64,000 bases of DNA from Paenibacillus polymyxa M1. GTDB lineage: Bacteria > Bacillota > Bacilli > Paenibacillales > Paenibacillaceae. Of this stretch, positions 39,901-42,900 are shown one piece after another; the first letter of the stretch is position 1; every line of letters begins with the position of its first letter. The notes beneath the pieces are model-generated. The model was not told where the DNA came from, did not search any database, and saw only the letters and a list, made by a program, of their open reading frames with translations. The stretch is taken from positions 2,762,501 through 2,826,500 of the forward strand of contig NC_017542.1 in the NCBI RefSeq assembly GCF_000237325.1, in the 5' to 3' direction. Both the position numbers and the translations under genes were made by a program.

Positions 39901-42900
39901 GAATGGGAACAGCCCGGGGCCGGGCAGGCAGCCTATAATGGAACCTGCAGAATCTTCAGCTGCAGACACTGTTATTGCGTTAACGCCAGATCAAAAACAG
40001 CTTTGGTTCGCCTCTGTTTCAGAACGCGGCGATTCTCTATCTTTACACGAAACCGCCTTGTTGCGGTTTCGTGGTACGCTTCAGCAGCAGGCGTTCAACG
40101 AGGCTGTCCAGACCATTGTAAACCGTCATGAAGCCTTACATATCTATATGAGCGGAGATGGAGAAACTCAGGTGATCGCTCCTGAGATGAAAGTGGAAGT
40201 CCCGCTCTATGATTTTACCACTCACCATCCCGATGAACAGGAGCAGCATCTCCGGGCATGGATGATCAAGAACAGCGAAACCCCGTTTAACATGATACCA
40301 GGTGAGCCACTATTCCGGATTCACCTACTAAAAATATCAGATGAGGAGCATCTGAGTGTCTTTACGTTCCATCATTTTATCGCGGATGGTTGGTCAATCG
40401 GTGTATTTATTGAGGAACTGGAACACATCTATTCTGCGCTTGTCCGGCATGCTGACTACAACCTTCCTGAACCGATACCTTTTCGGAATTATGTGGTTTG
40501 GCAGCAGGACCAGTTGAAAGCAGGAAAGGAAGAGGCCCTGGCTTTTTGGTCGGCGATGCTGGAAAAACAGCAGCCTGTCCTCCAGCTGCCATCTCCAGTG
40601 AGGGGAGTGCAGATTCTGTCCTCTAGAGGAAGCAGACATGCCCTAATTCTTGAGACGCCGCTTGTTAAACAATTGAGGTCTGCTAGCATAAAGCTTGGCA
40701 GCAGTCTTTTTATAACGCTGTTATCCGCCTTTCAGATTTTTCTGCATCGCCTGACAGGGCAGCGGGAAATAACGGTGGGGGTTCCCACCGCAGGACAATC
40801 CCATATGGACGCATTCTCTTTGATCGGCAACTGTGTCAACCTGCTTCCGGTCATCAGCGAAGTGCGTCCTGATTCTACTTTTATGGAGCATGCTCACACG
40901 GTCAAAAAGCGCATGAATGAACTGGAAAGCTATCAAAAGTACAGCTTTGCCGGACTCGCTCAGCTGGGGCTAAAACATTTACCTATCATAAAGGCTGTAT
41001 TCAATATGGATCGACCGATTCCGCGTTTTCAATTCCATAAACTGGAGACGGAGCTCGTTGAACATGAGGTATCATTCAGCAAATATGAGTTGTTTTTGAA
41101 CGTGACAGAGACGCAGAAGCAATTACGTCTTGATTTTGACTATAATGCAGATCTTTTTCAGCCAAACATAATCTTGGCCTGGTCAGGATATTTCCTGAAT
41201 CTGCTGCATTCCCTTGTAGAGGAAGAAGGGGCTCGCGTTTCCGCGCTGACGTTACTCCGTGCGTCGGAGACCGAAAAACTTCGAGCAGCATGGGCAGCGA
41301 ATACCGATGCCAATGGAAACTATCTTTGCGCCCTTGATGCGTACAAGCATTTGGCGCCTGTCGGGACAGCAGGGGAGGCGTATCAAGCCTCAGCAGCAGG
41401 TCTGTTGGGAACGACCCAGGAATGGGTTTATGTGGAGAACGATGGTAAGCTGCGGCATATCGGAAATTTGAATCGGGTCATCCATATTCGCGGGCATCAG
41501 GTTAATCTGGAGCAGTTGGAGAAACACCTGCTGCAGGTTCTCCAATTGGAGTCCTGCGTCATTACACCGCAAACGGACGAAACTGGAATCGTCTCATATA
41601 TAAGCGCCTATGTGGTCGCAAACGCATCGAAGCCTTGGGAAGCAGACGCATTAAAAAAGGCTGTAATTGAAATGCTTCCAGATTATACGCAGCCCCGTTT
41701 TTGGATTCTGATGGATCATATTCCTCTTCTGCCGAATGGCCAGCCTGATCTACAGGCTTTGCCAGCACCGGGACAAGCAGGCGTATTCGCTAAAACAGGC
41801 ATCGCTTCAGAGAACCGAGGTATGGAAGATCAACTTGTGGACATTTGGAAGGACGTTCTGAATGTAACGGATATCAGCCATGACGATAACTTTTTTCAAC
41901 TGGGCGGTGATTCGCTAAAAGCGACGGTGATTCTGTCGAGAGTCGGTAAGGAATTGGGGGTACACATTCCGCTTAGCCGCATTTTTGAGCTGCAAACGAT
42001 TGCTGATCTGACTGCATATATTGCGGGTGGGAGCAAGAGGGCCTACGAACCGATTGTAGCTGTGAACAGACAAGCCTTTTATCCGGTATCTTTTGCCCAA
42101 AAGAGAATGTACGTGCTTGAACAGCTAGGAGCCGGAATGGCCTATCATGTCCCTGGCCAGCTTTTCATAGAGGGAGCTCTGGAGGTTCCCCGCTTCATTG
42201 AAGCCGTTAAGGAAGTTATTTCTAGTCATGAATCTTTTCGGACATACTTCGATCTGGAAGACGGGGAAGTGGTGCAAAAAGTTCGGGACACCATTCCATT
42301 CGATATCCCGCATACCCGTATTTCCAAGGAAGAAGCAAAACAGGCCAGGACCTTGTTTGTTCAGCCTTTTCAGCTGGGAACAGCTCCTTTATTCCGCGCC
42401 GAACTGCTCGAATTTATCGAAGGTGGCTTCAATCTGCTCGTGGATATACATCATATCGTGTCTGATGGTTTTTCCATGGCTGTACTGCTTAATGAAATCA
42501 TTCAACGGTACCAGGGTAGACAACTTGCGAACATTCAGCTTCATTATAAAGACTTTGTTGCTTGGCAGAAGCAGCAAATAACTGATGAGGCATGGAAAGC
42601 GCATGAATCATATTGGCTTCAGAACTTGAATGGGGAGCTTCCTATTCTAAATATGCCAACAGACTTTCCACGTCCGCAAGTACAAAGCTTTGAAGGTGAC
42701 AGCTTGACCGTCACATTGGAATCCAAACTAGCGAGCAGACTCTATAAATTGGCCCAGGATACAAAGTCCACGATCTTTATGGTGCTTTTGGCGGTTTATA
42801 ATGTCCTGCTGGGCAAATATGCGGGTCAAGAGGACATCATCGTAGGTACACCTGTTGCCGGAAGACGGCATGTAGACACGCAAGCGATGATTGGCATGTT

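Follow-up and report, generated by a model that had tools for sequence, protein, structure and literature searches.

We found that the hybrid synthetase ORF1 in a 64,000-nt stretch of the Paenibacillus polymyxa M1 genome (the window) carries only the tail of an adenylation (A) domain between its first condensation domain (C1) and the following carrier domain (T1), and that this C1-dA-T1 unit is probably a relay module of the iturin kind that incorporates no residue. In such a relay, the aminotransferase domain (AMT) would make a beta-amino fatty acyl chain on the second ACP (ACP2), and C1 would transfer this chain from ACP2 to T1, where the phosphopantetheine would carry it. C2 would then couple the chain on T1 with the amino acid that A2 has loaded onto T2. 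Since the chain would pass from T1 to C2 without any addition, the residue selected by A2 would be residue 1 of the product. The adenylation remnant (dA) would at best act as a spacer or scaffold that links C1 with T1, its core having presumably been lost once, long ago, in the ancestor of the family.

All features of the cluster lie on the forward strand. A trans-acting acyltransferase gene (32716–33963; Pfam Acyl_transf_1, E 6.3e-35), which is FenF/ItuD-like as judged by its position and whose malonyl specificity is a prediction, lies just upstream of ORF1 (33950–46597), an open frame of 4215 aa read by the domain search as AL-ACP-KS-ACP-AMT-C1-dA-T1-C2-A2-T2-E2. AMT (38630–39799; Pfam Aminotran_3), whose 390-aa core served as the query domain, is followed by C1 (39965–41269), the remnant dA (41270–41809; end of the A core plus Asub, delimited by profile and domain comparison) and T1 (41810–42034). 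Domain search and motif alignment found HHFIADG intact in C1 (40370–40390) and GGDSL in T1 (serine codon 41912–41914); the frame is unbroken and both domains keep their motifs, as the preliminary description had stated. The domain search then placed C2 (42065–43369), with which the first incorporating module begins, the complete domain A2 (43415–44899), the carrier domain T2 (44915–45139) and the epimerization-type domain E2 (45170–46594). The A2 pocket code, DILQMGMVWK as read by eye, is one that we take to be Gly-like. The motif alignment showed IDPLVAD in E2 in place of HHxxxD, in contrast to E3 of the window, which has HHLVVDG. Across 18 proteins, that of the window included, the second His of the E2 motif is gone in all 18 and the first in 12. 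By these motifs E2 is probably inactive, and ORF1 would then probably hold a second conserved yet dead domain beside the remnant.

The next synthetase, ORF2 (46621–55980), was read by the domain search as C-A-T-E-C-A-T plus a terminal condensation-like domain. ORF1 and ORF2 together contain three complete A domains, and the domain search found no thioesterase domain in either. The condensation-like domain with SHIIFDA occupies the end of ORF2 (about 54420–55980, residues 2600–3119), where a thioesterase would be expected, and may act in product release or cyclisation; related domains also end synthetases at loci L061, L062, L063, L116 and L117. Separate hydrolases are encoded at 58458–59624 and 61134–62006. 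Directly after ORF2, a 116-aa ORF (55993–56343) weakly matches the beginning of an MFS transporter and is possibly a truncated exporter. At the other end of the window, a very large NRPS frame, which measures 14242 aa in the genome, reaches in with its C-terminal part (3–14681) and ends 18 kb before the cluster.

C1 ends at about residue 2440–2443 and T1 starts at about residue 2621–2626, leaving 182 residues between them. The A-domain deletion first placed at 41280–41790, corresponding to residues about 2444–2613, was thus correctly located, and only an A tail is left there. Residues 2496–2609 matched the C-terminal part of the synthetase's own A2 (positions 379–491) with 46.5 bits and an E value of 3.7e-16 in a search space of three proteins. 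A profile built from 32 remnant stretches plus T1 covered about residues 349–559 of GrsA PheA (1amu) and 786–1043 of SrfA-C. The part of an A domain before about GrsA residue 349, which holds motifs A1–A5, is absent from the remnant. Judged by this alignment, what remains is the last core strands and Asub, and the core that binds nucleotide and substrate has been lost. Pfam reported AMP-binding in two stretches of ORF1 and AMP-binding_C in one; as the latter matches A2 only, the remnant lies below Pfam detection.

An A6-like motif, an A8-like motif (41480–41521) and an A10-like PLLPNGQPD are present in the remnant, the last with Gln (41741–41743) at the position of the catalytic Lys. Among 32 aligned remnants only one has Lys at this position, but all 32 retain the adjacent Gly and 30 retain the Asp, so that the fold seems to be kept and catalysis lost. 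The remnant therefore lacks both the A3–A5 core and the catalytic A10 Lys of a functional A domain, and as far as motifs can tell it should have neither adenylation nor thiolation function. The first claims that the ATP- and amino-acid-binding half is missing, that the A10 Lys has become Gln and that the module's own A domain should be unable to activate an amino acid were borne out by the GrsA/SrfA-C profile and the alignment. An AlphaFold2 model of C1-dA-T1 reached a pTM of 0.90, and 667 of its 693 residues aligned with the four-domain NRPS AB3403 (5.3 Å), with rows mostly from residues 1–606, so that the placement of T1 was barely probed.

We compared this arrangement with known lipopeptide synthetases. 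In P0183 ("bacillomycin D synthetase A"), P0189, P0140 and P0136, C1 and T1 are separated by a linker of 32–34 aa and no A domain, and C-A follows; P0140 and P0136 have 3971 aa, which we take to be the size of MycA. Like the iturin family (ItuA, MycA and BamA; AL/KS order of the Bacillus proteins taken from Pfam lists), ORF1 carries AL-ACP-KS-ACP-AMT followed by C, T, C, A and T on one chain, has a separate acyltransferase just upstream (32716–33963), keeps HHxxxDG and the T1 serine, and lacks a functional A domain between C1 and T1. It differs in having an A tail of about 180 aa in place of the remnant-free linker. The product class also differs, since iturins are heptapeptides with Asn as residue 1 and a terminal Te, whereas the cluster here has three A domains, no thioesterase and an A2 that appears Gly-like by eye. 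In a 2025 paper (PMC11751314), the first C and PCP of ItuA are described as passing the beta-amino fatty acid on, and residue 1 of iturin-type products as being supplied by the next C-A-T module; the thioester transfer by C1 is a statement of that paper's introduction. The C-T relay itself is thus already known in print. The preliminary description had assumed that the iturin-type module at this place activates residue 1, which P0183, P0140 and P0136 contradict, and on this comparison the module is not a peculiar deletion from one that normally does so.

A closer relative of the remnant is found in P0032 (P. polymyxa, 127 member sequences), which reads AMT-C1-remnant-T1-C2-A-T-E with the E motif DPLVAD. 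Its A pocket, DVWHFSLVDK by eye, is presumably a Ser code, and the product paenilipoheptin carries Ser directly on the beta-amino fatty acid. P0032 is probably the paenilipoheptin synthetase PhnC, as judged by domain order and pocket; if it is, a remnant-bearing synthetase adds no residue at this place. P0032 shares with ORF1 the order ACP-AMT-C1-dA-T1-C2-A-T-E, with a remnant of 115 aa against the A model and a linker of 183 aa, and the C1-dA-T1 stretches are 59% identical. The differences are that AL and KS lie off the P0032 chain, that its A domain is Ser-like versus Gly-like (by eye), and that paenilipoheptin is a heptapeptide with seven A domains and Ser first, against three A domains here. 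Locillomycin, compared by description, has an extra A-less C-T ahead of its first real module [T-C-T-C-A-T-C], but this C-T is said to be skipped or optional (PMC8949500). The accessible parts of PMC11546977, PMC6693446 and PMC8363725 describe no A-less C-T relay. In the literature searched, which covered few subscription papers and neither the original MycA nor the original ItuA report, we did not find the retained tail, its spread or its repeated loss in print, and the only match to truncated- or remnant-A wording concerned a different enzyme.

We further explored the distribution of the module among relatives. The same gap occurs in open frames of P0002 (P. polymyxa, 97% identity, 32 member sequences) and of genomes G013, G026 and G061 (86%), and open-frame homologues range from 97% down to below 30% identity; an assembly collapse, considered at first, is thereby excluded. 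AMT relatives (E ≤ 1e-80) were found in 28 of 75 genomes of the genus and 61 of 394 of the family, the window's own counted. The family search gave 75 matches; the regions around 57 of these were taken, together with three C1-dA-T1 regions without AMT and 28 named loci. Where C1 and T1 were readable, two L062 fragments from other modules being excluded, the linkers between them fell into classes of 28–77 aa, 119–212 aa, 364 aa (one case) and 511–537 aa, the last being a full A domain. The order AMT-C1-[no A core]-T1-C2-A2 is common to many Bacillales synthetases, and the same family also includes AMT synthetases whose A1 is complete (L077, L093 and L094). The remnant recurs in lineages that are 23–30% identical over the dA-T1 stretch.

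Motifs were compared in 86 rows (60 with middle-class linkers, 13 short, 1 odd and 12 full A), which are partly redundant between genomes and proteins. Omitted were six repeats, L014 and L015 (both with both motifs kept), the two L062 fragments and loci ending before T1. All 73 A-less rows and 10 of the 12 full-A rows keep the H, H, D and G of the C1 motif; the T1 serine is present in 72 of 73 A-less rows, all 12 full-A rows and the odd row. The single A-less row without the serine is L062, where a stop (TAA) breaks the frame. Four C1 columns distinctive of the A-less rows were above the cut. Eight middle-class rows (L074, L080, L087–L091 and L098) have little or no A similarity in the linker. 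In L088–L091 and L098, linkers of about 180 aa are without detectable adenylation similarity and would be either remnants decayed past recognition or replacements.

Several loci showed further variation. In the window's own genome a second AMT synthetase (L069; G000:C1:1088500-1108499), encoded by a frame of 5262 aa, has an A-less linker of 195 aa, which gives the strain two relay-like modules. In four genomes (L052–L055 and L061–L063), the AL-ACP-KS-ACP-AMT ORF ends within 25 residues of the C1 start; two of the loci, L001 and L003, bear the name P. terrae. Three of these four genomes have a separate locus that begins ACP-C1-remnant-T1 and lacks AMT, and in G063 no AL, KS or AMT was found in about 17 kb upstream of it. 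The ORF after AMT-C-T stops inside an E-like domain in L015, L079, L082, L083, L097 and L108, and in the last five the next ORF starts with the rest of it; several species seem to divide the E-like domain between two proteins.

A quick tree of AMT+C1 (77 rows, with long branches) placed 59 of 64 A-less rows in one group (SH-aLRT 97). Within it the A-tail state is scattered and the no-A state appears at separate places (L060; L066–L068; L076/L078/L100; L086). Forcing the eight no-A rows of this group together was rejected (AU test, p-AU 0.0001), the group having been picked after inspection of the tree. Five further no-A rows (L079, L082, L083, L097 and L108) clustered with the full-A rows L077 and L094 and the odd L073; they may represent a separate loss, although long branches meet there and a warning is attached to their join with L094. 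The simplest reading of the tree would be one ancient loss of the A core in the family ancestor followed by several losses of the tail, a direction suggested by the difficulty of gaining a tail without a full domain.

Nei-Gojobori dN/dS values were calculated for 12 pairs, seven from the window's family plus L002/L004 and five from the family of L005–L010. They were 0.105–0.280 for C1, 0.114–0.356 for the Asub remnant and 0.043–0.326 for T1, all far below 1, and the remnant is under purifying selection. The suggestion that the residual tail works as a docking surface agrees with this conservation, yet several lineages have lost the remnant, which is therefore not essential in general. In the three pairs that include the window protein, T1 was less constrained than T2 (0.275–0.326 vs 0.065–0.123) and the whole remnant (0.236–0.277) resembled the dead-motif E2 (0.237–0.249). 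These rates would fit relaxation and count against the relay reading. The lower constraint on T1 would also suit a bypass, in which C2 receives the beta-aminoacyl chain directly from ACP2 while C1-dA-T1, as structural baggage, carries no intermediate; in locillomycin both T domains are described as skipped and either C domain as used (PMC8949500). Baggage is unlikely to keep its motifs, however, and the near-complete retention of the T1 serine and C1 HHDG in the 73 A-less rows, over deep divergence, makes such a bypass unlikely.

Intact C1 and T1 motifs would also suit a T1 that is loaded from elsewhere, by A2 in cis or by the A domain of another module in trans, with a residue added here, and A-less modules served in trans are known, for example module 9 of syringomycin SyrE (PMC8949500). 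Six of the 57 AMP-binding matches in the genome lie in short or single-module frames, and none of these is a plain stand-alone amino-acid A or A-T, contrary to what loading in trans would suggest; the remaining matches sit in longer synthetase frames and may include a loading domain. The three single-module frames (1127–1279 aa) are a C-A-T-TE, an A-T-C and a partial C-A-T-reductase, of which the latter two could speak for loading. The three frames under 600 aa in G000 resemble acyl-CoA ligases: the 571-aa ORF matches acetate-CoA ligase (974.2 bits, above cut-off), the 529-aa ORF the acyl-CoA synthetase MbcS (829.1 bits, below the cut-off of 850) and the 486-aa ORF a long-chain acyl-CoA ligase (far below cut-off), and all three were rejected as trans-acting A domains. 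MbcS-like genes also lie downstream of the G013 cluster and of the cut AMT ORF in G060, G062 and G063; they are 90–92% identical to the G000 copy, and as that copy sits away from the cluster, the gene seems to be no dedicated A domain. The iturin and paenilipoheptin structures, moreover, have no residue at this place. We consider an added residue very unlikely; among the three fates offered at first for the module, skipping is probably right, and neither the genome nor the likely paenilipoheptin homologue gave support for charging of T1 in trans. That the cluster is dying and the deletion a recent, pseudogenizing one, as the ORFs cut just after AMT in some related genomes and the missing His pair of E2 might suggest, is hardly credible and was rejected, given the open frames of the 97% and 86% homologues, dN/dS far below 1 and the same remnant in lineages at 23–30% identity.

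Beyond the non-incorporating relay, a bolder reading that we hold tentatively is that the remnant is a domesticated pseudo-adenylation domain, whose C-facing strands and Asub would be kept as a moving or spacing arm presenting T1 to C1, with C1 as a chain-translocating transacylase of condensation fold. If so, the remnant would no longer select a substrate or take part in either half-reaction, leaving a pure thioester-to-thioester transfer of the beta-aminoacyl chain, and C1 would be the NRPS counterpart of non-elongating KS domains. This raises the testable question of a condensation domain that moves an acyl chain between carriers without forming a peptide bond. The living series of full A, A tail only and no A suggests a route from module to relay. 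The relay reading corrects the tempting view that the product misses one amino acid, and suggests a rule for product prediction, namely that a C-T with no or a vestigial A domain in an AMT synthetase adds no residue.
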